This document shows positions 1,669-25,517 of a stretch of 28,973 nt of DNA, piece by piece; position 1 is the stretch's first letter; each line of letters begins with the position of its first letter. A model generated the notes under the pieces. That model was not told the origin of the DNA. It saw only the letters and a program-made list of their open reading frames with translations, and searched no databases. The translations under genes and the position numbers were made by a program. The DNA comes from a virus. The stretch covers positions 1-28,973 of the IMG/VR virus record IMGVR_UViG_3300018084_000010; one strand, given 5' to 3'.

Positions 1669-2670
1669 TCAAAAGAAACGCTTCACGTATCGTGCGTGCA
1701 CCGACGCCACTCGGTCACTGAGTTCCTGCCGAAATGGACGCCACCATCGTTCACGTTGCTCACGAGCAATTTCCATCCGCTCGTTGCTGAGCGCATAGAT
1801 GTCATCCATCTTTCGGACGATAAAATCCTTTGGATCGAATCCGGCTTTCTTGAGCATTGTGCGTGAGTCTGGCTCGAAGACCATCGGTAGGCCAGCCGAC
1901 AACATTTCATAGAATCGATTGGCCGGTGAGTGAAATTGCTTATGCGATCGTGCGTCTTCGATATACAAGCCAAAGCCATAGCCGTTCAATTCTCGATAGA
2001 ATCGCTCGGAGATTTTCGGAATGAGCGTGATGTGCCTGTACCGTTGAAAATTGTGATCCGGTCGCGATGGACTATCTCGAATAGGCGATCCGCTACTCAC
2101 GACACGATTCATTTTGTTGAACTTCTTTTCGAAGAATCGATCGAACGACGGACCACGATACTTGCGGAACGATCCGTAATAAAACAGATCGACATCTTTC
2201 GGCTCTCGAATCGTGAGCGGTGTTTCGAGCGCCGACAGCATATTCCAGTTCACGAAGAAGTCGCCCTTGCCCTGAACGTTGTCGGTCACAGTCGTCCAGT
2301 AATCTGTATCTGGCTTGCCCTTCTTGCGTCGCCAGCGGAACGCGTAGCGAAATGATGACTCTGCATTGCCATCAGCCTTTGGCGCGGTGATCATGTAGTC
2401 GTTCTGAACCCAAACGATGCGTCTCGCGCGTCGAACTGCTTTCGCCATCGCATCGCGGATCGTGTCGCCAGTCAGTGCGAGGCCATTGATGAACAAGATA
2501 TCGTATTTCCGGTCTTCAATCTGTTCATCGTACATGAACTCTGCACCGAGCTGCTCAGCCAGCCAATATGCGATACGTGTTCCGCCGGACATCACTGTGT
2601 GAACTTTCTTTCCAGCCAAGAATGCTTTACTCGGCTTGACGAACGTGAACATTCCAAGGCGTAACTTCAT
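1669..2670 (-). CDS. GT-B-like glycosyltransferase of the base-modification cassette
   Basis: A 333-residue protein. The start ATG 2670-2668 overlaps the kinase stop in an ATGA (2670-2667); a longer frame from 2889 would merely overlap the kinase gene. The C-terminal half has the donor-site signature of GT-B enzymes as seen in phages: FYYGSFRKYRG at 163-173, then SPANRFYEMLSAGLPMVFEP at 248-267, followed by a conserved-looking helix region. The N-terminal half has alternating strand/helix segments (YDILFINGLAL, 56-66; RIVWVQNDYM, 84-93). I infer a nucleotide-sugar-dependent transferase. Its position, directly coupled to a 5-hmdU-kinase-like gene, suggests that the acceptor is a modified base in phage DNA, though another acceptor cannot be excluded. 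Confidence 0.75.
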   Translation of the reverse strand: MKLRLGMFTFVKPSKAFLAGKKVHTVMSGGTRIAYWLAEQLGAEFMYDEQIEDRKYDILFINGLALTGDTIRDAMAKAVRRARRIVWVQNDYMITAPKADGNAESSFRYAFRWRRKKGKPDTDYWTTVTDNVQGKGDFFVNWNMLSALETPLTIREPKDVDLFYYGSFRKYRGPSFDRFFEKKFNKMNRVVSSGSPIRDSPSRPDHNFQRYRHITLIPKISERFYRELNGYGFGLYIEDARSHKQFHSPANRFYEMLSAGLPMVFEPDSRTMLKKAGFDPKDFIVRKMDDIYALSNERMEIAREQRERWWRPFRQELSDRVASVHARYVKRFF

Positions 2671-3224
2671 GTATTCCTTAAGAGATTGGTGATGTATCGA
2701 ATCATCGGAACGGCGTCGTTGGTGCGATGACACGGCATTCCTCGTTCTTGTGCCTCGTCGAACATCGCGCGCGCACGACGCTGTTTCATTTCCATCGTTG
2801 TGAGACTCACTCGCGCGTTCCGATGATTCAATGATTGTCGCCACTTGATCCGTTCGACACAGATTTCCAGCGGGGGATCGATGAGACACAGATGCACATT
2901 TTCTCCAGCGTCGTGATATCCGAAGAATTTCTTTCCCGAGATCAAGACATTCTCCACGAGAATGTGCAGATCCGTGCGGATGAGCACGTCTTGAATCACA
3001 CGAAAGATATCGCTGTGCTTCATGCAGTCTGATCCGCCCATACTACGACCAGTAACGTATGGTCCAACGATGAAGACCGGATGGTGAACTTGTTTTAATG
3101 CAATCAACGTACTGCCATGATGCAGATCGATGGCGGATTTCGTTTGGAGCGTCGCTTGCTTGATGATTTCGCGCACGACGTACGACTTGCCAGAACCGTT
3201 CGTTCCACGAATGAGAATGATCAT
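2667..3224 (-). CDS. P-loop kinase resembling phage 5-hydroxymethyl-dU DNA kinase
   Basis: A 185-residue protein starting at ATG 3224-3222, which overlaps the upstream methyltransferase stop in an ATGA. The frame can be extended to 3290 but that extension lies inside the neighbour. A Walker A motif GTNGSGKS sits at residues 7-14, right after a hydrophobic strand (MIILIR). A segment GPYVTGRSMGGSD (55-67) and ILVENVLIS (88-96) match the substrate-loop and Walker-B-like regions I associate with the phage hmdU DNA kinases described for thymidine-hypermodifying phages. Those enzymes phosphorylate the 5-hydroxymethyl group of hmdU in DNA, activating it for later substitution. The helical partner family is encoded upstream at 4992-5852, which supports the call. 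A generic adenylate-kinase-like enzyme is the main alternative. Confidence 0.74.
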   Translation of the reverse strand: MIILIRGTNGSGKSYVVREIIKQATLQTKSAIDLHHGSTLIALKQVHHPVFIVGPYVTGRSMGGSDCMKHSDIFRVIQDVLIRTDLHILVENVLISGKKFFGYHDAGENVHLCLIDPPLEICVERIKWRQSLNHRNARVSLTTMEMKQRRARAMFDEAQERGMPCHRTNDAVPMIRYITNLLRNT

Positions 3225-3817
3225 TGCGGTTTCAGCAAGAGGATGAACCATCCTTGCGTGAACACTGGAATGGCTTTGGCGATTTTCCATCCATTCTTCT
3301 TGAGCAAACTGCGGAACTTACTTTCATCGTGCTCTGCTGTATTGCTCTTTGGAACATACTTTGGACCGAAACGAATCGTACAGATGATCGCCTTCTCAGA
3401 CACGGACATCAACTTTTTGACGACCTGTCGCATCGCCTCTTCATCAATCAGATCGAGAAAGCGAACGCACACTGAAACATCGACAGGCTCGGTCTTGAGC
3501 ATGCGGACATCTTTCACCTTGAGTGTAATACCTTTGCAATTCTTTACTCGCTTCGCTTTCTTCGCCGCTTGTGCCACCATCTCATCGGATACGTCTACGC
3601 CAATCACACGCTTGACATTCAATCGTTCGTACGCTGGAATATAGCGGCCAGTCCCGACAGGAACATCGAGCACAGACCGCGGTTTCAGCTTGGCGAGTAA
3701 ACGTTCAACTTCCTCGTTCTCAATCTTCCATCGACCTTGCGTGATCCGATTCGGTTCGTATGTCTCGGCCATGCGTCCGTGGTATTTCTTGCTCGTTGTT
3801 GTGATAGAGACGGTCAT
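3221..3817 (-). CDS. Class I SAM-dependent methyltransferase
   Basis: A 198-residue protein starting at ATG 3817-3815 in an ATGA overlap with the upstream DUF4406-like gene. The Rossmann SAM site is clear: motif I VLDVPVGTGRY (49-59), motif II GVDVSDEM (73-80), then a D-V-R after beta-3 and VSVCVRFLDLID (about 104-115) as the post-I region. An N-terminal helix segment (YHGRMAETYEPNR) is common in small-molecule methyltransferases. The C terminus is a lone strand pair (GWFILLLKPQ). There is no DNA target-recognition domain and no DPPY or PC motif, so methylation of a small molecule, a sugar or the modification group seems more likely than plain base methylation. It sits between the DUF4406-like and kinase genes, fully coupled to both. 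Confidence 0.8.
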   Translation of the reverse strand: MTVSITTTSKKYHGRMAETYEPNRITQGRWKIENEEVERLLAKLKPRSVLDVPVGTGRYIPAYERLNVKRVIGVDVSDEMVAQAAKKAKRVKNCKGITLKVKDVRMLKTEPVDVSVCVRFLDLIDEEAMRQVVKKLMSVSEKAIICTIRFGPKYVPKSNTAEHDESKFRSLLKKNGWKIAKAIPVFTQGWFILLLKPQ

Positions 3818-4302
3818 TGGCCCATGAGACGAGAGGGTGAATCATCGGTGAATGGATACTTGAATGACGGCGCACCCATGTCTTCTATTTCGAGTTGCGA
3901 GACGGGGAATTCGCGATAGCCAATATCGATGGTGACATGGCTTGGCCGTTCGATGACGAGTCCAGTTTGCCAATCGATGAATGCGAATCCGAGTGTGATG
4001 GCCACAGCTACCTCGGCGCGACATCCGAGTGCACGATCCCATCCCGGCATTAGTGCGATAGCATTGCATACACTCATCATCGTGATGATGTCCATACGCA
4101 AGCCAGGAAATGCCGGACGGAATCTCTTGTCGTTCTCTGGAGAGTATTCTGCACCGAGCGAATTTATGTTCACATCGATGGGACTGATTGCCTGATGACC
4201 AAGCGACCGTAGTCTCGCCGCGCATCCCTCAATCGCAGCGTATCCCTTGTCGGGAATTCCGGTGCGACGACCGCAGACATAGACAATAAGATTCTGATTC
4301 AT
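3814..4302 (-). CDS. DUF4406 / nucleoside 2-deoxyribosyltransferase-like protein
   Basis: A 162-residue protein. I chose ATG 4302-4300, four bases after the upstream stop, because the conserved fold starts immediately (LIVYVCGRRTGIPD, 5-18). Other DUF4406 hallmarks follow: ARLRSLGHQAISP (28-40), then R-x-D-I at about 70, and IALMPGWDRALGCRAEVAVA (82-101), the loop where the family binds nucleotide-like ligands. DUF4406 proteins are related to nucleoside deoxyribosyltransferases and are common in phages with altered nucleotide pools. A C-terminal extension of roughly 45 residues beyond the usual domain is present. In this operon it may process or salvage a deoxynucleotide, or bind the modified nucleoside. 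The exact reaction is unknown. Confidence 0.75.
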   Translation of the reverse strand: MNQNLIVYVCGRRTGIPDKGYAAIEGCAARLRSLGHQAISPIDVNINSLGAEYSPENDKRFRPAFPGLRMDIITMMSVCNAIALMPGWDRALGCRAEVAVAITLGFAFIDWQTGLVIERPSHVTIDIGYREFPVSQLEIEDMGAPSFKYPFTDDSPSRLMGQ

Positions 4303-4306
4303 GATA

Positions 4307-4990
4307 TCAGACCGGACCAGAGCGTGCGAGCAGTGTCCTGCGATTCCATTCTGCATTCACGAGCGCGAGATAGCGCCGAAGGTCTTGAACATCATCAACA
4401 CGATCTGGTCGAGCGAGCAGCATGTCGACAGGATCGTTATTAAATTCGATGACCATTGGCGAGAAACGATCCCACTTGCGCGCGAGCATCATAAATGCGC
4501 CGACACCACCACGCTTGAGCCATGATGCATGGTACTCTTGATCACGCCTTAGAATGAAGGTGTAGTCCCTTTCCATGATCGTTGGAATTTCGCTAATGTA
4601 ACTTTTCGGCATGGGCGACATGCCTGAATGCTGAGTGATGTATCTGACACGTGCTTCGATGCGCGCAAGATTGTGACGAAGTCTGCGTACATCGTCGATA
4701 ATAATCTCACCGAATTCTTTGAGTGCAGCAAAGATATCGTAGTGATATCCTTCTGTCCGGCCTTCAATACTGTTCCACAGAATTGTCATCACGTGAAAGA
4801 TATCTGGCGCGATCTGTGGCTCTCCTTGCACAGACATTATCGCGACACTATCTGAACGGATTACTTCAGAGAGAAAATTCAGGTGGAGAAATGGCGTCTT
4901 GAATTGGTCTGGCGGCGTGTCGAGTGTGATCGCACCGTACTCTTTAATCCGTCGGCGTTGATCTGCCGAATAGTTTTTCTGATCAGGCAT
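4307..4990 (-). CDS. Unknown protein of the base-modification cassette
   Basis: A 227-residue protein whose ATG (4990-4988) is one base after the stop of the aGPT-Pplase-like gene. GGAGG lies five bases upstream, inside the end of that gene, so translation should be well coupled. I do not recognise a family. It looks mainly helical and has conserved-looking aromatic/acidic stretches: PDQFKTPFLHLNFLSEVIRS (27-46), TILWNSIEGRTEGYHYDIF (69-87), a charged helix IIIDDVRRLRHNLARIEARV, and ASWLKRGGVGAFMMLARKWD (about 154-173). It has no P-loop, no Cys pairs and no signal peptide. Its place between two genes typical of thymidine hypermodification makes it the best candidate here for an uncharacterised pathway component. 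Confidence 0.8.
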   Translation of the reverse strand: MPDQKNYSADQRRRIKEYGAITLDTPPDQFKTPFLHLNFLSEVIRSDSVAIMSVQGEPQIAPDIFHVMTILWNSIEGRTEGYHYDIFAALKEFGEIIIDDVRRLRHNLARIEARVRYITQHSGMSPMPKSYISEIPTIMERDYTFILRRDQEYHASWLKRGGVGAFMMLARKWDRFSPMVIEFNNDPVDMLLARPDRVDDVQDLRRYLALVNAEWNRRTLLARSGPV

Positions 4991-4991
4991 C

Positions 4992-5852
4992 TTAGCCTCC
5001 GTATGGGATGAATTTTGCCTTCGGCCGACCAGTTCCTGCTCCAGTTCGACTGTACTTCGAGAACTCGCAGAGGCAATTTTGTAGATCTTGCGCGTGCAAA
5101 CGCGGAAATCTCCAGCGCGCGATGTACGGATTCACGAGCGCATGCAACTCCGATAGCGCTTCACGCCATTCATGTTCTCGCCATTTTGTTGATGGGCTAA
5201 TGCCAGTGACATACGACATCCCTTTACGACTACCGGGACCAGATGATGCGAATGTCCAGAAGTCTTTCGCATTCTTGAGTGGTTGAACATATTTCATATC
5301 AGCCACAATCTGCGCAGCCATGAACGAACCCATCCCATCAAACTTCATCAACATACGATGGTAATTGGCCAGTGACTCATGACGGACCGGACAAAGCATT
5401 GCTCTGTTTTCCCACATCGGATCGAGTACGTAGTCTGCGAGATACTCGGACTTGTCCATCGCCCGTCCACCGGTCGACACGATGTACGCGCCACCGAATC
5501 GCTTGAGCCCTTCGGCCTTACGACGTGCCATGACTTTCAGAAACTGCGCGCGGTTCCATCGGCCAGGAAGCGATAGCTCTGCGAGCGTGTCAGTATTGTT
5601 GACCAGACGCGCAACGACCATCGCAAACCAAAGATGCTTCTCATTTTTGTACGGAGTCCGCCAATGCGCGTTGATCCATAGAGTCACGCGATCGAGTTCG
5701 CGATAGACGTTGGTGAATTTATACACCAACAAGATCGGATCTTTCGTCCATGGCGGACCATCTTGCTTGAGATGAAATCTGCGCTTCCAAATATGATGGC
5801 GTTCTCGAATGAAGTAGAGCAACTGCTCCAGCTTCGGGAATCCATAAATCAT
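4992..5852 (-). CDS. aGPT-Pplase / 5-hmdU kinase-helical superfamily protein
   Basis: A 286-residue protein with ATG at 5852-5850 and GGAG seven bases upstream. Several segments match what I recall of the phage helical family named alpha-glutamyl/putrescinyl-thymine pyrophosphorylase (aGPT-Pplase) and its relative, the helical domain of 5-hmdU DNA kinases: FIRERHHIWKRR (14-25), GPPWTKDPILLVYKFTNVYR (32-51) followed by ELDRVT, GAYIVSTGG (121-129), an HhH-like KFDGMGSFMAAQIVADM (170-186), FASSGPGSRKGM (201-212), and LCEFSKYSR near 261-269 with GRPKAKF. Members occur in phages with hypermodified thymine and have been implicated in attaching amino acids or polyamines to activated hmdU. Which subfamily this is cannot be settled by eye. 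It heads the cassette that includes the kinase. Confidence 0.78.
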   Translation of the reverse strand: MIYGFPKLEQLLYFIRERHHIWKRRFHLKQDGPPWTKDPILLVYKFTNVYRELDRVTLWINAHWRTPYKNEKHLWFAMVVARLVNNTDTLAELSLPGRWNRAQFLKVMARRKAEGLKRFGGAYIVSTGGRAMDKSEYLADYVLDPMWENRAMLCPVRHESLANYHRMLMKFDGMGSFMAAQIVADMKYVQPLKNAKDFWTFASSGPGSRKGMSYVTGISPSTKWREHEWREALSELHALVNPYIARWRFPRLHAQDLQNCLCEFSKYSRTGAGTGRPKAKFIPYGG

Positions 5853-7257: not shown

Positions 7258-7490
7258 CGGTTCTCCTTGCCTGTCCGACCGCGCATATCATAGGGTAAAG
7301 TCCCTTCTAATCTGCGCAGTCGTCGAACTATCGCTTTCTTTGCTCGAACGTAGCCATCCTCCTTTTCCATGGTAATGTCTATGAGTCCGTGGTGACGTGC
7401 GTCTTCGAGTTGACGGACCGCTTGCTCGAAGCGAAGTAAGAGACTCCGTGTTCCTGGCGATAGCGACTTGACCCCGTAGGATATACTCAT
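7254..7490 (-). CDS. Small basic helical protein, unknown
   Basis: A 78-residue protein. ATG 7490-7488 overlaps the upstream stop as ATGA, so I prefer it to the in-frame ATG at 7598, which lies inside the SLOG-like gene. It has two predicted helices: GTRSLLLRFEQAVRQLEDAR (14-33) and DGYVRAKKAIVRRLRRLEG (about 46-64), the second strongly basic, with a basic C terminus (MRGRTGKENR). No family is recognised. A nucleic-acid-binding role is possible from composition alone. Confidence 0.68.
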   Translation of the reverse strand: MSISYGVKSLSPGTRSLLLRFEQAVRQLEDARHHGLIDITMEKEDGYVRAKKAIVRRLRRLEGTLPYDMRGRTGKENR

Positions 7491-7987
7491 CGATAAATCC
7501 GCGTCAAGAATTTCTCGTGATCCAATGTCATGACGCCATTCGGCCAAACAATCAGTACTGGAACATGGATCCGTCGCGCCATGCGTACAGTGGTCCACGT
7601 GCCAGAGCGGAGTTCTTCCTTTTGGGAGTGTGGCGCTGCGATGAGAAACGTTGAGCGCTTGACGATCTCTTCATTGCGTGTGAGTGGCGGACGTACTGAA
7701 TTCATCGCGACATGATCTTGGCCATCAAATAGTTTGACTCGCGCTTGATCCGCTGGCCAGATATCGGCAAATCGCAATGGACATTCTTCTCGCCAGAGTG
7801 CGTGGAATTCTGTATCCGATCCATGTGCGCCTCCGTGCCGAACGATAGCAGGTTTCCCGATAGACAAACAGACACGAATAATTTCGTACTGTGTGTGCGA
7901 CATCCCCGCGCGAGTTCCTGAGAATCCCCATTCTGTTTCGAAATGCTCGCTGATCAAATTCATGAGAGACTTCGCTGGATGTGTCAT
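7487..7987 (-). CDS. SLOG/LOG-like Rossmann protein (DprA-type nucleotide binding)
   Basis: A 166-residue protein with ATG 7987-7985 in an ATGA overlap. The pattern of motifs fits the SLOG superfamily: GFSGTR at 21-26 after the first strand, HGGAHGSD (51-58), RNEEIVKRSTFLIAAP (104-119), RSGTW (127-131) with the following helix TVRMARR, and VPVLIVWPNG (142-151). In related proteins these loops bind nucleotides or nucleotide-sugar derivatives. Phage SLOG proteins of this single-domain type are common but rarely characterised. It could sense or process a nucleotide made during infection; the co-operonic TS-like and DUF4406-like genes make a nucleotide-pool role plausible. This is inferred from motifs only. 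Confidence 0.72.
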   Translation of the reverse strand: MTHPAKSLMNLISEHFETEWGFSGTRAGMSHTQYEIIRVCLSIGKPAIVRHGGAHGSDTEFHALWREECPLRFADIWPADQARVKLFDGQDHVAMNSVRPPLTRNEEIVKRSTFLIAAPHSQKEELRSGTWTTVRMARRIHVPVLIVWPNGVMTLDHEKFLTRIYR

Positions 7988-8903: not shown

Positions 8904-9364
8904 GCTGTTCCTCGCTTGATCGCTTCGCCAAATGCCGAGAGTTCTTTCGAGACCTCATCGAGATAGATGAGATCGTTCTCTGTGGGTTCATCCCCATCGT
9001 CGAATGTGAACGTGAACATATCCATGAGCCATGCGATGCCCGTGTACCATGCGCGTCGCATCTCTGATCGCTGGATTGGCCCTGCACGAATCGGATCCAA
9101 CGTGGCACGCTCGTATTCCGCCCAGGCGATCGCGATGGTAGAGCGACGAATGGTCGTCAGTGGTTCGTCAGGATGGAGGATACGATTCACCAACGATGCT
9201 TCAGAGGCATCGATCGTTGGCGCGTCGAGTTTTGTGTCGTATGCTGCGATGAGACTGATTTGTCCATCACCATGGCACATCTCACAGCGCCGTCCGTTCA
9301 GCGATTTCGATCCGCGGCACATAGGACAGAGTCGCGATGTGTTAATCCGTTCATGCCGAGACAT
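8900..9364 (-). CDS. Protein with DnaJ-type zinc finger
   Basis: A 154-residue protein with ATG 9364-9362 and AGGAG five bases upstream. It begins inside the end of the TS-like gene (14-bp overlap). The N terminus holds a pair of CxxCxG elements, CPMCRGS (13-19) and CEMCHGDG (27-34), the zinc-binding pattern of DnaJ central domains. The rest is helical and acidic (IAIAWAEYERATLD, MFTFTFDDGDEPTENDLIYL). There is no J domain. Single DnaJ-like zinc modules occur in small phage proteins of unknown role and may support protein or nucleic-acid contacts. Confidence 0.75.
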   Translation of the reverse strand: MSRHERINTSRLCPMCRGSKSLNGRRCEMCHGDGQISLIAAYDTKLDAPTIDASEASLVNRILHPDEPLTTIRRSTIAIAWAEYERATLDPIRAGPIQRSEMRRAWYTGIAWLMDMFTFTFDDGDEPTENDLIYLDEVSKELSAFGEAIKRGTA

Positions 9365-10421
9365 GGGCGCTCCTGAGTTCTGCGCGACGCAGTAACCATG
9401 CTGTTCCTGCAGTCAGCCAGTCGTTGTGTGTGCTCACTCCCTTGGCCTCGCTGAGCACGGCAAGCGCAAGATGAAAGTCGCCATTTCTGTAGCATCGATG
9501 CGCGCGATACATCGGTCGTACGACATACGAGAAAAAGAAATTCTGATAGTCGCAAAGTGTACGATCGGCCAATGATCCGTCGGCCACGAACGACATCACC
9601 TTGGCGAGTTCGTTATCGAAGACTGCTGGCGCGTGCACGAGTGGATACGTTGTGATTCCGCTATTATACGGATCACGCGTATCGGTGAGTGGATAATATT
9701 TCGACCAGCGATACGGTGTCTCGATGTAGGCATGATAGTCGCCACTGATCTGCGTGTAGGTTCCCATCGGGACACCGATCATGGATGCCAAATATTCCTG
9801 CAGGAACGACATGTGCACCGCGTTCGCTCCGTAACATCCCCACACGATGTCGTTGCTGCGATTGTAGACTTGCATGTTGAGATGATTCAAATGAATTGAT
9901 AGTTTGATCAGATCATTGCACGGAATGTCTCCGCTCGTCGTATCGAGATCACGCGCTGGATCCCACATGCCAATCACTGCGCGACGTGATGAGGGATCGC
10001 GTTGGAGCATGGTGATGATCTTGGCCAGCTGATCCATTCCAACGGATTGTCCCAGGGGATGAATGACATCTGGCGGAAGTGGCCGCGCTCCCCAATGTCG
10101 CCAACGATAGCCGTACGCGCCATGGAATGTGATTCCATCGTCGGAGAACTGGCCGAATGTCCGATTGAACTGGCGGAGTGTCGCGACATCGTTCTGCCCG
10201 TTCACCATCCACAGGGCTTCGAACAGATGAAAGAACGGATTGGCGTCGCGTTGTGCGGTGAAGAGCACCCGTTCCTGTGGACTCGCATAGACCGTCGCGA
10301 CGGGATACGGCACTCGACGCACGGGACCATTGCGTGATGGAGTGATGAGGCCATGCGTCGCCATGTACGACATACCGTGAACATACGCATCGTTGACGTT
10401 TCGTGCGTGGATTACGAACAT
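9351..10421 (-). CDS. Thymidylate synthase superfamily (dUMP hydroxymethylase or TS)
   Basis: A 356-residue protein. I place the start at ATG 10421-10419, with GAGG six bases upstream; the frame extends to 10613 only inside the neighbour. TS-fold motifs are clear: NPFFHLFEALWM (61-72), GAYGYRWR (101-108), the phosphate-binding RR at 146-147, catalytic Cys168 in DIPCNDL, NRSNDIVWGCYGANAVHMS (187-205) and GDYHAY (227-232). The His after the catalytic Cys of classic TS is Asn here, and the usual PFN is replaced by YGAN, keeping the Asn (N200) linked to uracil rather than cytosine specificity. The phage hypermodification genes downstream favour dUMP hydroxymethylase (dUMP to 5-hydroxymethyl-dUMP), but plain TS activity cannot be ruled out from sequence. 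Confidence 0.85.
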   Translation of the reverse strand: MFVIHARNVNDAYVHGMSYMATHGLITPSRNGPVRRVPYPVATVYASPQERVLFTAQRDANPFFHLFEALWMVNGQNDVATLRQFNRTFGQFSDDGITFHGAYGYRWRHWGARPLPPDVIHPLGQSVGMDQLAKIITMLQRDPSSRRAVIGMWDPARDLDTTSGDIPCNDLIKLSIHLNHLNMQVYNRSNDIVWGCYGANAVHMSFLQEYLASMIGVPMGTYTQISGDYHAYIETPYRWSKYYPLTDTRDPYNSGITTYPLVHAPAVFDNELAKVMSFVADGSLADRTLCDYQNFFFSYVVRPMYRAHRCYRNGDFHLALAVLSEAKGVSTHNDWLTAGTAWLLRRAELRSAHVSA

Positions 10422-20103: not shown

Positions 20104-20477
20104 CTCGACCATCAATCACTGGATGGTTCGATAGTACGATTCGAATCTGGCGTCCGAGCGTGACTCGGTCTGGTCCAGGAATCGATACACGGAATCTATC
20201 GCCCATCGCTGTTGTCGGTGCAGTCATTAATCGATCACGCACACCAGAAGCACCGCAGGATGGAGGACTCGCGCGCTCTGGGATCATTCGGTGGTACGGG
20301 AAAGCAAATATCGACATTCAGCAGCGTGATGTCGTGCAGGTCTTGACCGGTCCCGATGCAGGACGTACATGGGAAGTGAATGAACAACCAGTCCGTCCGC
20401 GCGGACATCATACGCAAGTGGATTGTGTTGAGTGGAATGGTGTACTCCCAGCAATCGAGGAGACGAGCGATGCCTGA
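20100..20477 (+). CDS. Head closure / head-tail joining protein
   Basis: A 125-residue protein; ATG 20100 overlaps the connector stop and has AAGAGGA six bases upstream. The pattern is that of small beta-barrel head-closure proteins (SPP1 gp16 / HK97 joining type): strands around IRIWRPSVTRSGPG and IAVVGAVINRS, then QRDVVQVLTGPDAGRTWEVN and RPRGHHTQVDCVEW, where H-H-x-Q-V-D-C near the C terminus recurs in such proteins. It closes the portal channel after packaging and receives the tail. Its last 8 bp overlap the PIG-L-like gene, marking the left border of the inserted glycan cassette. Confidence 0.75.
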   Translation: MTRPSITGWFDSTIRIWRPSVTRSGPGIDTRNLSPIAVVGAVINRSRTPEAPQDGGLARSGIIRWYGKANIDIQQRDVVQVLTGPDAGRTWEVNEQPVRPRGHHTQVDCVEWNGVLPAIEETSDA

Positions 20478-21183
20478 GAACGATCTGTGGGAAGTGTTCT
20501 TGACTCCGCATACGGACGATGAGACATTGGCGATGGCAGGCGCGATCACTCATGCGCACTTCTCCGGTCTCAAGACTCGTGTGATTCTTGTCACGGACAA
20601 TAAGCCATCCATCCGGCAGTCTCGTCTCTATCCGCTCGACAATCTCGACACACTCCGTCGTGTAGAATGGCAGCGCGCGATGGAAGCCTTACGTGTCAAT
20701 GCGTTTGAGACGTGGGAGATTCCTGAAGACGTGATGGCCGAACGTCCGTTCGATGTTCAAGCGATGATCGAAGATCGGATGGAAGATCTCCTCGAGTTGG
20801 ATATATTGCATCTGCATACGGTCTGCGGTGCTGACGATATCCATATCGATGCCGGATATGGAAGTATCTCGCATATTCTCTGCGCGAATGCAGCATCGAA
20901 GTTCGCCCAGAAGCATCCGGGCGTACGCGTCACACTCCACGGAGTCTACGTCTACTCGAAACCCATCGAGGAGCGTGCCATATACGGGCCGATGCGTCTC
21001 ACAAAGATCCCACTCTCGAAGAAAGAATGGATGCGGAAGATTGAAGCGCTACTCTGCTATCGTCCGGGCCAAGGTTCACTCGGCTATGGATATCGTTCGG
21101 TGCCAGAACTCTTCGACAACGCATTGATGGATCCCCACGAGTACACCGTTGAACTCTCCCAATCGATGGCGGTGAGCGCATGA
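20470..21183 (+). CDS. PIG-L / LmbE-type deacetylase-like protein
   Basis: A 237-residue protein. ATG 20470 with GAGGAG seven bases upstream sets the start. The metal/catalytic motif of the PIG-L family is present as PHTDDE (13-18; usually PHPDDE) followed by TLAMAGAI (19-26); a second motif RRVEWQRAMEALRV (63-76) and HLHT (114-117), then HIDAGYGSISH (125-135) give the expected histidine ligands. The family removes acetyl groups from N-acetylglucosamine-linked substrates, or acts on related amides, in a zinc-dependent way. Family members in phages are uncommon in structural operons. Here it heads a run with methyltransferase and glycosyltransferases, so a sugar substrate is likely. Substrate unknown. 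Confidence 0.82.
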   Translation: MPENDLWEVFLTPHTDDETLAMAGAITHAHFSGLKTRVILVTDNKPSIRQSRLYPLDNLDTLRRVEWQRAMEALRVNAFETWEIPEDVMAERPFDVQAMIEDRMEDLLELDILHLHTVCGADDIHIDAGYGSISHILCANAASKFAQKHPGVRVTLHGVYVYSKPIEERAIYGPMRLTKIPLSKKEWMRKIEALLCYRPGQGSLGYGYRSVPELFDNALMDPHEYTVELSQSMAVSA

Positions 21184-21767
21184 TTGACGTCGCCGCGATT
21201 TATAATCGATTCTTTGCGCTCGGCGGACCACCGTCTGGATCTGTTCGTCCGTGGAATTATCGTCGGAAAGAAACATCGCTTCGTCTCGTCGGGTGTCAGC
21301 TGCTCGTGAATCTCGTCTACGAGCGACAGCCACGATGGGTTCTTGATCTCGGAAGCGGCATTACATCGCACATGCTCCGTCACGCGATGCGTGATCATCC
21401 TGATATGATTGTCATCACAACTGACACTCACCAGAAATGGCTCGATATGACGAGTGCTGAATTGCGTCGAGACGGACTGAACACGGAGCATTGTTACCTG
21501 CAGAGTGCTTTTGAGTCCAAGACATGGCCGCCGTTTGATCTCATCTCAGTCGACTCGGGCAATCTGAGCTATCGTATCGCACTCGCTCCACATTTTGTTG
21601 AGTGGTGCGCGCCACACGGAATACTCTTCCTCGACGATTGGCGGAGACACGACTATGCAGTCGCAATGGAAGAAGCATTAATTCCGATGGGATTCCAAGT
21701 GACTGAGCACGACAAAACGTTGGACGAGTTTGGAATGAGCACAGCCACTGCGGAGCGTGTCACATGA
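21180..21767 (+). CDS. Class I SAM-dependent methyltransferase (glycan cassette)
   Basis: A 195-residue protein starting at ATG 21180 (ATGA overlap). SAM-binding motif I VLDLGSGITSHML (54-66) is clear, with acidic ends of later strands (VITTDTHQKWLDM near 78-90; FDLISVDSG about 120-128) and GILFLDDW (about 146-153). This layout resembles the Methyltransf_24/FkbM-like groups that O-methylate sugars or natural products. There is no DNA target-recognition region. It is coupled to the PIG-L-like gene before it and the DNA-methyltransferase-like gene after it. Modification of a virion glycan is the simplest idea, but not proven. Confidence 0.8.
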   Translation: MIDVAAIYNRFFALGGPPSGSVRPWNYRRKETSLRLVGCQLLVNLVYERQPRWVLDLGSGITSHMLRHAMRDHPDMIVITTDTHQKWLDMTSAELRRDGLNTEHCYLQSAFESKTWPPFDLISVDSGNLSYRIALAPHFVEWCAPHGILFLDDWRRHDYAVAMEEALIPMGFQVTEHDKTLDEFGMSTATAERVT

Positions 21768-22264
21768 AGATCATCTATCACGATGCAATGACGACACTCT
21801 GGCTCGGTAACGCGGACCAGTGGCCATGCACGGATTGGGTAGATTTTGTGTTGACGAATCCGTATGGACCAATGCCGATTGGCCTCGCAAAGACGCCAGC
21901 GATCATCCATCAGTGGCGACATCGCAAAGCACAAGCAGAGCAATGGTCTCACATGCAGCTGACACGCGAAGTCAGTGCATGGAGTAAAGACCGCGAAGTC
22001 TTTTGGGCGAATACATACGTGACTGACTTCGTTCCGCTCAATCTCACAAACTATAATCCAGAACCATCTGGATGGTATCCGGAAGAACTCGTTGTGCGAT
22101 TGCTATCGCAGTATGTTCGTCCTGGACAAGTGGTCTGGGATGGATTCATGGGACGGAGCACGGTCGGCAAGGTGTGTCGCGCGATGGGAATCAAGTATAT
22201 CGGTGTGGAACAATTGGAACGCCACATGGTGCTTGCGATGTCGTACTTGGATCTTTCATCATGA
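21764..22264 (+). CDS. Small beta-class DNA-methyltransferase-like protein
   Basis: A 166-residue protein with ATG 21764 (ATGA overlap). The order of motifs is that of beta-class N6-adenine/N4-cytosine methyltransferases: catalytic motif IV as TNPYGP (31-36; usual DPPY/SPPY) comes first, and SAM motif I VVWDGFMGRSTVGKVCRAMG (123-142) with IGVE (146-149) comes last. The region between is short, leaving no room for a normal target-recognition domain. The NPYG variant keeps the Asn-Pro-Tyr core seen in N6-adenine enzymes. It may methylate phage DNA with low specificity, need a partner, or act on a non-DNA substrate. A DNA enzyme inside a glycan-like cassette is notable. Confidence 0.78.
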   Translation: MKIIYHDAMTTLWLGNADQWPCTDWVDFVLTNPYGPMPIGLAKTPAIIHQWRHRKAQAEQWSHMQLTREVSAWSKDREVFWANTYVTDFVPLNLTNYNPEPSGWYPEELVVRLLSQYVRPGQVVWDGFMGRSTVGKVCRAMGIKYIGVEQLERHMVLAMSYLDLSS

Positions 22265-23970
22265 CGCAACCATCCTTCTGGAGTCCAACCACGACCCGAG
22301 AACTCGACAGTACACCACTGTCGGATACGGAACGTCCGGCCAGGATCGTGGCCTGTATCAACGTATGGAATGATCTCGACGCGCTCAAGCAGACATTGCC
22401 GTCGTGGTTCGCCTACGTCGAGGCGGTAATCGCTGTTGATGGTGCCTATGGTGCGATTGATCAAGGACTTAGCACTGATGGAACGCGCGAATACTTGTCG
22501 AAGATGAAACGCACGACGCTTGTCGATGGGGCTGGTCTATCCCAATGCGACAAGCGATCACTCTATTTTCGACACACGCGTGCGGGAGACATGCTCTTTA
22601 TCATCGATGCGGATGAGACTGTGCTCACTCCGCAGGCCTTGCGCGAGGTGCCGATCTGCGATGTTGGTTGGATCCGCGTGCATTCCAATCTCTACAAGCG
22701 TCAATATGGACAACCGAGATTGATCCGCTGGCAGCCCGGACTTCGCTATCAAGGTCGGCATCATTGGATCTATGCGAATCATCGTGTGCTTTGCACGCAT
22801 CAGTATGGTGGCCCTGGCTTTGAGCATCGTGTGTCTAATGTAACGATCAATAACCAACGCCAGCTCGGTCGGTCACCATCGCGCATGTCTGCAAAGCGCG
22901 AGAATCACGCTGTGCAGATTGCAGATGAGAGAAGTCAGTGCTCAATGCCGACGGCGTTCGCGTCAGACACACAGATCGGTGGGCGCGAAGCATTACAGAT
23001 TGCGCATATCGTCTATCGTGATGATGGCCTTGCTCCGTCGCGCTTGCATACGGCGATCAATCGTACGACTCCACACTCCTCACTCTTCTTTAAGAATCGA
23101 CCGGGGCCGTTCGGCGTGCCTGATGGATTGTTGATGTCCCAGAATTCTGTGAAAATGATGCAAGCGCAACAACAGGCGGACGTCCTTCATTTTCATGGAG
23201 TCATGAGCCAAGCGAAGCGAATACGCCGAACGTCTCCGACGGTTTTTCATCATCATGGATCCTTACTGCGAGCCAATGCAGCGGAGTACAATGCACAAGC
23301 GAGATCGATCAACGCATTGATCCTGCTGTCGAATCTCGAATTGTTCTCATGGACGACGGATGTCGAGGCTCATTTCCTTCCGAACGTTATGCCCGTGGCG
23401 CGATATCGTCGCTTGCGAGATCGTTTGTCCGTGCCGTGGGATGGCAACAGCCCATTCCGCATCGCGCACTCGCCGTCAAAGCCAGAGCGGAAAGGAACGA
23501 AAGAATTTCTCGCTGCGTGCGAACGCTTGAATGCACGAGGTATTCCAGTCGAACCAGTGATGTTACACGATAAGGATCATCACGAAGTACTTCGCATCAA
23601 AGCGACATGTCATGCGGCGTTTGATTCGTTCTGGCTCGGCATTCAGTGCTCTGGACTCGAGTCGGCAGCGATGGGATTGCCCGTGATTGCAGGAGACGAA
23701 ACGGTTGCGAGACGCTACACCGAACAGTTCGGCGCAGTGCCATATACGATGGCGGTAAACGGCGAACAGTTGGAAACACAGCTCGAACGTCTCGTCGACG
23801 AGCCCGCATTCTACATGACCGAAGCCTTTCGCGTGTCGACATATGTGACGGCGCACCACGATGAGTCTGCGGTGGCCTTGCGATATCTCGATTTGCTGGA
23901 CACTGCGTTCGGTTGGCGTTCGTTAACACGGAGATCTCGCCCGATGACTTTCCTCAACATGAAAAGATAA
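22261..23970 (+). CDS. Bifunctional glycosyltransferase (GT-A plus GT-B domains)
   Basis: A 569-residue protein; ATG 22261 overlaps the previous stop as ATGA. The N-terminal domain (about 27-240) is GT2-like: RIVACINVWNDLDALKQTLP (28-47), VIAVDGAYG (56-64), then DGTREYL and the metal-binding IIDADE (114-119). The C-terminal domain (about 300-560) is GT-B/GT4-like: VLHFHGV, VFHHHGS, FRIAHSPSKPERKGTKEFL and CSGLESAAMGLPVIAGDE (about 461-478), the donor-nucleotide site. Joining two unrelated glycosyltransferase folds in one chain implies two successive sugar additions. It probably builds a short glycan on a phage protein or other phage-made acceptor. Donor and acceptor sugars cannot be told from sequence. 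Confidence 0.86.
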   Translation: MTQPSFWSPTTTRELDSTPLSDTERPARIVACINVWNDLDALKQTLPSWFAYVEAVIAVDGAYGAIDQGLSTDGTREYLSKMKRTTLVDGAGLSQCDKRSLYFRHTRAGDMLFIIDADETVLTPQALREVPICDVGWIRVHSNLYKRQYGQPRLIRWQPGLRYQGRHHWIYANHRVLCTHQYGGPGFEHRVSNVTINNQRQLGRSPSRMSAKRENHAVQIADERSQCSMPTAFASDTQIGGREALQIAHIVYRDDGLAPSRLHTAINRTTPHSSLFFKNRPGPFGVPDGLLMSQNSVKMMQAQQQADVLHFHGVMSQAKRIRRTSPTVFHHHGSLLRANAAEYNAQARSINALILLSNLELFSWTTDVEAHFLPNVMPVARYRRLRDRLSVPWDGNSPFRIAHSPSKPERKGTKEFLAACERLNARGIPVEPVMLHDKDHHEVLRIKATCHAAFDSFWLGIQCSGLESAAMGLPVIAGDETVARRYTEQFGAVPYTMAVNGEQLETQLERLVDEPAFYMTEAFRVSTYVTAHHDESAVALRYLDLLDTAFGWRSLTRRSRPMTFLNMKR

Positions 23971-25517
23971 TGCAAGATCAGTGGAGTGACCTCACGATCG
24001 TGACATCATGTCATCGGTATGGGAAGTATCTGCCAGAGTGGACGAAATCCATTCTGTCGAATACGGTGCGTGTCGGTCGTGTCTGCATGTTCTCTCATGG
24101 AACTGTCGAGGATTTCACCGCCTGTGAAGACGCAATCAAGGAATTCAAGAAAGCGGGCATTGCGACTCGCCACGAGCATTCGGCGACTCAATTGGATTAC
24201 GGATCAGCACGCAATCGCGCGGTTGCGATGGCGGTATCGCCGTGGGTCATGCATCTTGATGCCGATGATCTCCTCATGTCGCACGCCATCAAAGAGTTTC
24301 GGATTCTTTCGGAATCGTGCGATGTCATTCAAGCCGGCTATGAGCGCAGCGGAAACATCGCTGCTGGTCCTGCACGACGCGCACGCGTCTACCAAGGCGC
24401 CGATGGACTCGCAGCACTTGATCTCCCAGCCATCTGTTCTGGCAATTCTCCATTTCGGAAAACGTTATGGGATCGATCCCCGTACCGTAGTGACATGCTC
24501 GGTGCATGGGACACGGCGCTCTGGATCGGTTTCTCGCGGCTCGGCGCGAGGTTTCGTCCGACGATCAGAGCCGCATTCTATTATCGGCAGCATCACGATA
24601 GCGTCTTCAACGAACGTCGTCGGGTGAATGGATGGGCAAGAGCACACACGTCGGCGATGCTGAAAGCGCTGCGACGCAATTACGAAGGTGTTGACATTAT
24701 CGTTCCGCTGTCGAAACGTCTCTCGGCAGAACGTCAGCGAAATTGGACTCGTGTCCGCGCGCATTATGCCGAGCATCATCCTGACTGGCGAATTATCGAA
24801 GGGCTTTGTGATCATAAAGATTGGATCAAGGGACGCGCGGTCGAAGACGCGACTGGCGCTGCTCGTGGCGAGATTGTCGTAATTGCAGATTCAGATTGCA
24901 TCGTTCATCCGGACAAACTGCGCGATGCTGTGGCCAAAGTAAAGGAGGGAGCTCCATGGGCGATGCCACACACGATGGTACACCGAGCGAAAGATGCATT
25001 GACCCATGTGATTTGTGGCCAACATCCATCGACGTTACCAATGATTCCTGCGATGGTGCAATGCGATCGTGTTCCGCATGTTACAGTTCCTGGCGGAGGT
25101 ATCGTAGTCGTGAAGCGAGTAAACTACGATGCAGTCGGCGGAATTCCGCAAGTCTTTCACGGATGGGGAGGTGAAGACAAAGCATTCGCAATCATTTGTG
25201 AGACTGCGCTCGGACCATGTACACAAGGCGATGGCATTTTGGTCCATCTGTGGCATGAACATCAACAGGACAAAGTTCTACCGAATGGAAACCTCGGTGT
25301 CTTGAAGAAAATCGGCTACGCCGCTCAACATGGGAAAGACTCACTCATCGCCTTGACGTCTACATTCCCGAATGGAGCCGCTCGCCCGACCACTTCATTA
25401 CGTCCTGCGCCTGGACTTTATCACAAGGCTTCTGTCCGCGAGGTGAGACAGTTTGATCAGCGCACAATCGCTGAACGGCGAGAACGTCTGCAAGCAAAAC
25501 GCCGGAGGATGCCATGA
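23970..25517 (+). CDS. Tandem GT-A (GT2-type) glycosyltransferase
   Basis: A 515-residue protein. ATG 23970 overlaps the previous TAA (TAATG); upstream alternative starts lie inside that gene. Domain 1 (about 6-230): LTIVTSCHRYGKYLPEWTKS (8-27), YGSARNRAVAMA (77-88) and MHLDADD (94-100), the GT2 nucleotide and metal sites. Domain 2 (about 240-450): VDIIVPLSKRLSAERQRNWT, GEIVVIADSDCIVHPDKL (about 297-314) with its DSD metal motif, PGGGIVVVKRVNYDAVGG and HGWGGEDKAF near 397-406, resembling the acceptor-side helix of galactosyltransferase/chondroitin-synthase-like enzymes. Two GT-A units in one chain suggest alternating or sequential transfer. It works, presumably, with the adjacent GT-A/GT-B enzyme. 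Confidence 0.86.
   Translation: MQDQWSDLTIVTSCHRYGKYLPEWTKSILSNTVRVGRVCMFSHGTVEDFTACEDAIKEFKKAGIATRHEHSATQLDYGSARNRAVAMAVSPWVMHLDADDLLMSHAIKEFRILSESCDVIQAGYERSGNIAAGPARRARVYQGADGLAALDLPAICSGNSPFRKTLWDRSPYRSDMLGAWDTALWIGFSRLGARFRPTIRAAFYYRQHHDSVFNERRRVNGWARAHTSAMLKALRRNYEGVDIIVPLSKRLSAERQRNWTRVRAHYAEHHPDWRIIEGLCDHKDWIKGRAVEDATGAARGEIVVIADSDCIVHPDKLRDAVAKVKEGAPWAMPHTMVHRAKDALTHVICGQHPSTLPMIPAMVQCDRVPHVTVPGGGIVVVKRVNYDAVGGIPQVFHGWGGEDKAFAIICETALGPCTQGDGILVHLWHEHQQDKVLPNGNLGVLKKIGYAAQHGKDSLIALTSTFPNGAARPTTSLRPAPGLYHKASVREVRQFDQRTIAERRERLQAKRRRMP

Follow-up and report, generated by a model that had tools for sequence, protein, structure and literature searches.

Thymidine hypermodification in Pseudomonas phages M6, YuA and PaMx11 and in Salmonella phage ViI is characterized by genes for a dUMP hydroxymethylase, an HMUDK_hel protein and a 5-hmdU-kinase-family protein in one locus. 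By contrast, T4 beta-glucosyltransferase (BGT) makes glucosyl-hydroxymethylcytosine and is linked to a dCMP hydroxymethylase, while base J (beta-glucosyl-hydroxymethyluracil) of kinetoplastids is made on intact DNA by JBP hydroxylases plus a glycosyltransferase (GT). Bacillus phage SP-15 carries glucose and phosphoglucuronate on dihydroxypentyluracil, with the sugar acid linked through a phosphodiester (PMC5977210), and uses a teichuronic-acid-like gene set. In marine podophages, pelagiphage HTVC023P-type loci were noted in passing to have TS and aGPT-Pplase1 in one region with a 5'-deoxynucleotidase and a putative glucosyltransferase (PMC9599517), so the pairing has a published hint; no kinase or methyltransferase combination was described there, as far as we consulted this work.

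Here, we present a computational analysis of a 28,973-nt fragment of an uncultured phage (IMG/VR record IMGVR_UViG_3300018084_000010, positions 1 to 28,973; hereafter, the window). This analysis was motivated by the original prediction, made from the sequence alone, that six coupled minus-strand genes at 1669-5852 form a thymidine hypermodification cassette with its own GT. Our findings support this prediction. Similar to the M6, YuA, PaMx11 and ViI loci, the window encodes a dUMP-hydroxymethylase-type enzyme and an HMUDK_hel protein, together with a kinase that we connect to the 5-hmdU DNA kinase family through its relatives; however, instead of an ADDT transferase, radical-SAM or acetyltransferase gene, none of which was found, it encodes a predicted divergent relative of BGT and a methyltransferase. 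In the literature we consulted, which did not include the central papers on these systems, we found no description of this GT family, its relation to BGT, the kinase-methyltransferase-GT set or the exchange of partners described below.

Genes of the predicted thymidine modification locus

All six genes are present on the minus strand and are tightly packed, with junctions of -4, -4, -4, +4 and +1 nt. With respect to gene starts, the GT gene begins at 2670, giving a protein of 333 aa, and the DUF4406 gene probably begins at 4302. A 96%-identical record of 47.7 kb supplies the rest of such a genome, including polymerase, other replication genes and tail genes. Against this relative, the genes evolve under purifying selection, with dN/dS values of 0.03 for the GT, 0.02 for the kinase, 0.12 for the methyltransferase, 0.17 for the 227-aa protein and 0.05 for HMUDK_hel. 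Neither the window nor the 47.7-kb record has a match to the ADDT or radical-SAM profiles. Moreover, no hit to a JBP/TET hydroxylase was seen among the proteins scanned, albeit without a dedicated search.

The gene at 4992-5852 (minus strand) encodes a 286-aa HMUDK_hel protein of the aGPT-Pplase1 type (HEL; PF18723, E 2.3e-39, 135.9 bits against a cut-off of 25; phrog_2396, 1.5e-49). The gene at 9351-10421 (minus strand) encodes a 356-aa TS-superfamily protein (phrog_5131, 2.4e-104) that is 43-44% identical to PaMx11 gp51 and YuA gp17, the latter of which is annotated as a putative deoxyuridylate hydroxymethyltransferase. As originally noted, this protein has the uracil-type Asn; T4 dCMP hydroxymethylase (gp42) has Asp at this position. 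In addition, the protein has FGQF where thymidylate synthases have IWDEW. Because it is also closest to the hydroxymethylases of HEL loci, we set aside the possibility that it is an ordinary thymidylate synthase. In 59 viral loci with HEL, the hydroxymethylase is nearly always next to HEL or a few genes away.

The gene at 2667-3224 (minus strand) encodes a 185-aa P-loop kinase with GTNGSGKS and GGSD motifs. It matches phrog_800 (4e-13), whose label "terminase small subunit" we reject as a propagated misannotation, and has weak tblastn matches (25-29%) to kinases that sit beside HEL and the hydroxymethylase in PaMx11 and Ab18. Kinase, HEL and hydroxymethylase are neighbours in PaMx11, YuA, Ab18 and RHph_I72, and the kinase and helical proteins are separate genes in YuA and PaMx11 too. 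The family alignment shares the P-loop, GG-x-D and Glu positions, and 10 of 11 members match PF18748; however, the window protein itself does not. Because a 38%-identical homologue in another locus (L004) is over the curated PF18748 cut-off, we suggest that the window kinase is a diverged member of the 5-hmdU DNA kinase family, which it reaches only through its relatives.

The gene at 3221-3817 (minus strand) encodes a 198-aa class I SAM methyltransferase (PF13649, 3.5e-12). The gene at 3814-4302 (minus strand) encodes a DUF4406/nucleoside 2-deoxyribosyltransferase-like protein (PF14359, 3.3e-8; phrog_355, 1e-14), and a related gene follows the hydroxymethylase in many HEL loci. The gene at 4307-4990 (minus strand) encodes a 227-aa all-helical protein with a C-terminal RGGVGAFMMLARKWDR domain that is widespread in viral contigs. 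This protein has 539 confirmed viral relatives and recurs near HEL and the hydroxymethylase, but it has no Pfam match and no PDB fold match.

A glycosyltransferase with a predicted BGT-like fold

The GT encoded at 1669-2670 (minus strand) is not recognized by any of the sequence libraries searched; a weak Fpg-like_C hit (E 0.004 over 24 residues) is considered to be due to chance in light of the fold result, and a sequence search of the PDB with the GT found nothing. Similarly, no hit to a curated sequence family of BGT was found among 31 members at E <= 1. The family has no match in 50,697 phage isolate records and none in 84,980 cellular genomes. An AlphaFold model from 31 relatives has a pLDDT of 91.9 and a pTM of 0.90, and its best six matches among 350,542 PDB chains, based on Foldseek, are BGT structures (E down to 2.1e-9), followed by T4 alpha-glucosyltransferase, some with hmU DNA. 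Thus, the original guess of a GT-B-like enzyme is confirmed by the predicted structure. Consistently, a profile comparison with six BGT sequences gave a score of 41.8, while 60 column-shuffled controls gave a mean of 14.9 and a maximum of 22.6. In this alignment, Asp92, Arg170, Arg173, Asp240, Arg253 and Glu256 (numbering of the 334-residue translation of 1669-2673) correspond to BGT Asp100, Arg191, Arg195, Asp258, Arg269 and Glu272, and all six are invariant in 31 sequences. In BGT, Asp100 is probably the catalytic base and the Arg and Glu residues probably bind UDP-glucose. However, the TM-scores to BGT are moderate (about 0.6), sequence identity is 13%, the hhalign probability is only 67%, Pfam does not assign the GT, and the seventh position analyzed, BGT Glu163, has no aligned counterpart. 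Altogether, these data support that the GT, which is similar to BGT also in length, is a divergent relative of BGT.

Of 30 non-redundant GT lineages, 22 carry both HEL and the hydroxymethylase and 26 carry at least one of the two, while several of the others are short fragments. Thirteen lineages have a kinase, and in 17 no kinase was detected in the locus. The methyltransferase family occurs in 5 of the 13 kinase-positive lineages and in none of the 17 kinase-negative lineages (Fisher p 0.009, not corrected for relatedness). Thus, methyltransferase and kinase look like one added tailoring step on top of glycosylation.

Exchange of HEL partners

HEL is not kinase-specific. Among 42 non-redundant HEL-recruited viral loci, 24 have a GT (the family described here, TAGT PF20691 or a GT-B) and no kinase nearby, 10 have a kinase and no GT, two have both, and six have neither. 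Over whole records, 31 of 43 lack any kinase match, although records may be fragments. On the HEL tree, the partner state changes at least 16 times; for instance, a locus with TAGT plus radical SAM (L026) and a locus with a kinase (L028) are supported sisters. Similarly, the window's own sister and nearest relative (L003) has, at the same place, a TAGT-like GT, a UDP-sulfoquinovose-synthase-like enzyme (NF041015, 8.8e-97, below its cut-off) and a GT-B. The conserved residues of HEL, including the HAQDLQNCLCEF block, are the same whichever partner is present. Cultured Microbacterium phages such as Carostasia pair HEL with a TAGT GT and a TS-family enzyme carrying the cytosine-type Asp, and have no kinase-profile match. 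We infer that HEL is a shared DNA-handling subunit that presents hydroxymethylpyrimidines in DNA to exchangeable enzymes.

Predicted pathway and product

Based on these observations, we consider it likely that the cassette makes a sugar-modified thymine in phage DNA. According to this model, the TS-family enzyme converts dUMP to 5-hydroxymethyl-dUMP, which, by analogy, is polymerized in place of thymidine, while the DUF4406 protein and the HD proteins seen in relatives probably help to purge competing nucleotides. HEL would then give the tailoring enzymes access to hydroxymethyluracil in DNA, and the BGT-like enzyme would transfer a sugar, probably from a UDP-sugar, onto the hydroxymethyl oxygen, giving a base-J-like O-glycosyl-hydroxymethyluracil. 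Finally, we infer that the kinase and the methyltransferase add phosphate and methyl to the sugar or to part of the hydroxymethyluracils. The step from dUMP is strongly supported, and sugar transfer is well supported by the predicted fold, the conserved residues and the recurrent linkage; however, no nucleoside chemistry exists for any relative of this GT, adjacency does not prove a shared pathway, and many loci are fragments; the sugar, acceptor, order of steps and product are inferred. T4 BGT itself can glucosylate hydroxymethyluracil in DNA, making base J, but in duplexes only when hmU is mispaired with G (PMC4111573), and the need for a helper is therefore plausible but unproven. The likely purpose of the modification is protection from host nucleases. 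The original prediction assumed the known route of phosphorylation followed by substitution; this route need not apply because most HEL loci with a GT have no kinase nearby. The methyl decoration that it suggested is plausible but unproven.

Among the alternatives, it is a possibility, although an unlikely one, that hydroxymethyluracil in DNA is phosphorylated first and that the GT then puts the sugar on the phosphate, giving a sugar-phosphodiester base like the phosphoglucuronate of SP-15. In support of this idea, kinase, methyltransferase and GT are coupled in the window and recur together in several lineages. However, in the 17 of 30 GT lineages with no kinase detected in the locus, the GT must use an unphosphorylated acceptor, and BGT homologues attack a hydroxyl. 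Even less likely is a canonical M6-type amine route, in which the kinase activates hmdU as the pyrophosphate, an unrecognized transferase displaces it, and the GT and methyltransferase are bystanders; while kinase, HEL and hydroxymethylase are the core of M6, YuA and PaMx11, the lack of ADDT-type transferase or radical-SAM matches in the window and the 47.7-kb record, together with the very strong purifying selection on the GT and its BGT type, argues against this scenario. Finally, phage GTs acting on virion proteins or cell-surface polymers are common, and the window has two further GT2-type enzymes in the structural genes that are conserved in relatives, but the best fold matches to DNA GTs and the linkage to HEL or the hydroxymethylase in 26 of 30 lineages make it very unlikely that the GT and methyltransferase only happen to lie beside a thymidine modification locus.

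More tentatively, uncultured phages may make a diverse, exchangeable set of sugar-decorated thymines, which are base-J-like, further phosphorylated and methylated in the window, and possibly sulfoquinovosylated in the sister lineage, with HEL as the common DNA-access subunit that serves kinases and GTs alike and even an apparent hydroxymethylcytosine system in the cultured Microbacterium phages. Such enzymes would be useful for labelling and synthesizing modified DNA and for studying modification-dependent restriction. In the literature we consulted, sugar on hydroxymethyluracil appears as base J of protists, and phage DNA glucosylation is known mainly on cytosine. The locus described here predicts that glycosylated thymine is a common phage strategy that culture collections have missed, points to a predicted DNA GT family with no annotation, and suggests a general role for HMUDK_hel, which so far has been named after the kinase.

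Other genes in the window

Upstream of the cassette, on the minus strand of the window, we found a possible SLOG/DprA-like nucleotide-binding protein (7487-7987), which is conserved in L002, the corresponding locus of the 96%-identical relative, and in L003, the locus of the sister lineage. Compared with L002, about 60-90 bp are replaced at 9425-9485 in the C-terminal part of the hydroxymethylase gene; this gene is only 82% identical, while its neighbours are 95-99% identical. On the plus strand, the structural gene region contains genes for a PIG-L deacetylase, two methyltransferases (one of the DNA N6/N4-type) and two GT2-type glycosyltransferases (20380-25517), of which the two glycosyltransferases are conserved in the relatives G001-G003 and the other three only in G001, the record that contains L002.

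Distribution of HEL and associated proteins

The RGGVGAFMMLARKWDR helical domain of the protein encoded at 4307-4990 (minus strand) has 539 confirmed relatives in viral contigs and no Pfam model, and it follows HEL and the hydroxymethylase in several phages and in Hyphomicrobium-type bacterial contigs. We also notice that the hmdU DNA kinase family is labelled "terminase small subunit" in PHROGs (phrog_800) and in several phage records (NC_028770 gp49 and NC_010116 gp13). Forty-two Microbacterium phage records match HEL; in one of these phages, the cultured phage Carostasia (PQ114742; locus L186), HEL occurs with a TAGT glycosyltransferase and a TS-family enzyme with the dCMP-hydroxymethylase-type Asp. 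In archaeal, candidate-phyla and other bacterial genomes, HEL homologues were found without any of the profiled partners (51 of 74 loci; L217-L268), where they could perhaps function in defence.

A UDP-sulfoquinovose-synthase-like enzyme in the sister lineage

In the cassette of the sister lineage, a UDP-sulfoquinovose-synthase-like enzyme (L003, 12848-14035) is encoded between two glycosyltransferases, and no relative of this enzyme was found in 50,697 phage records. A sulfosugar on DNA would be new.
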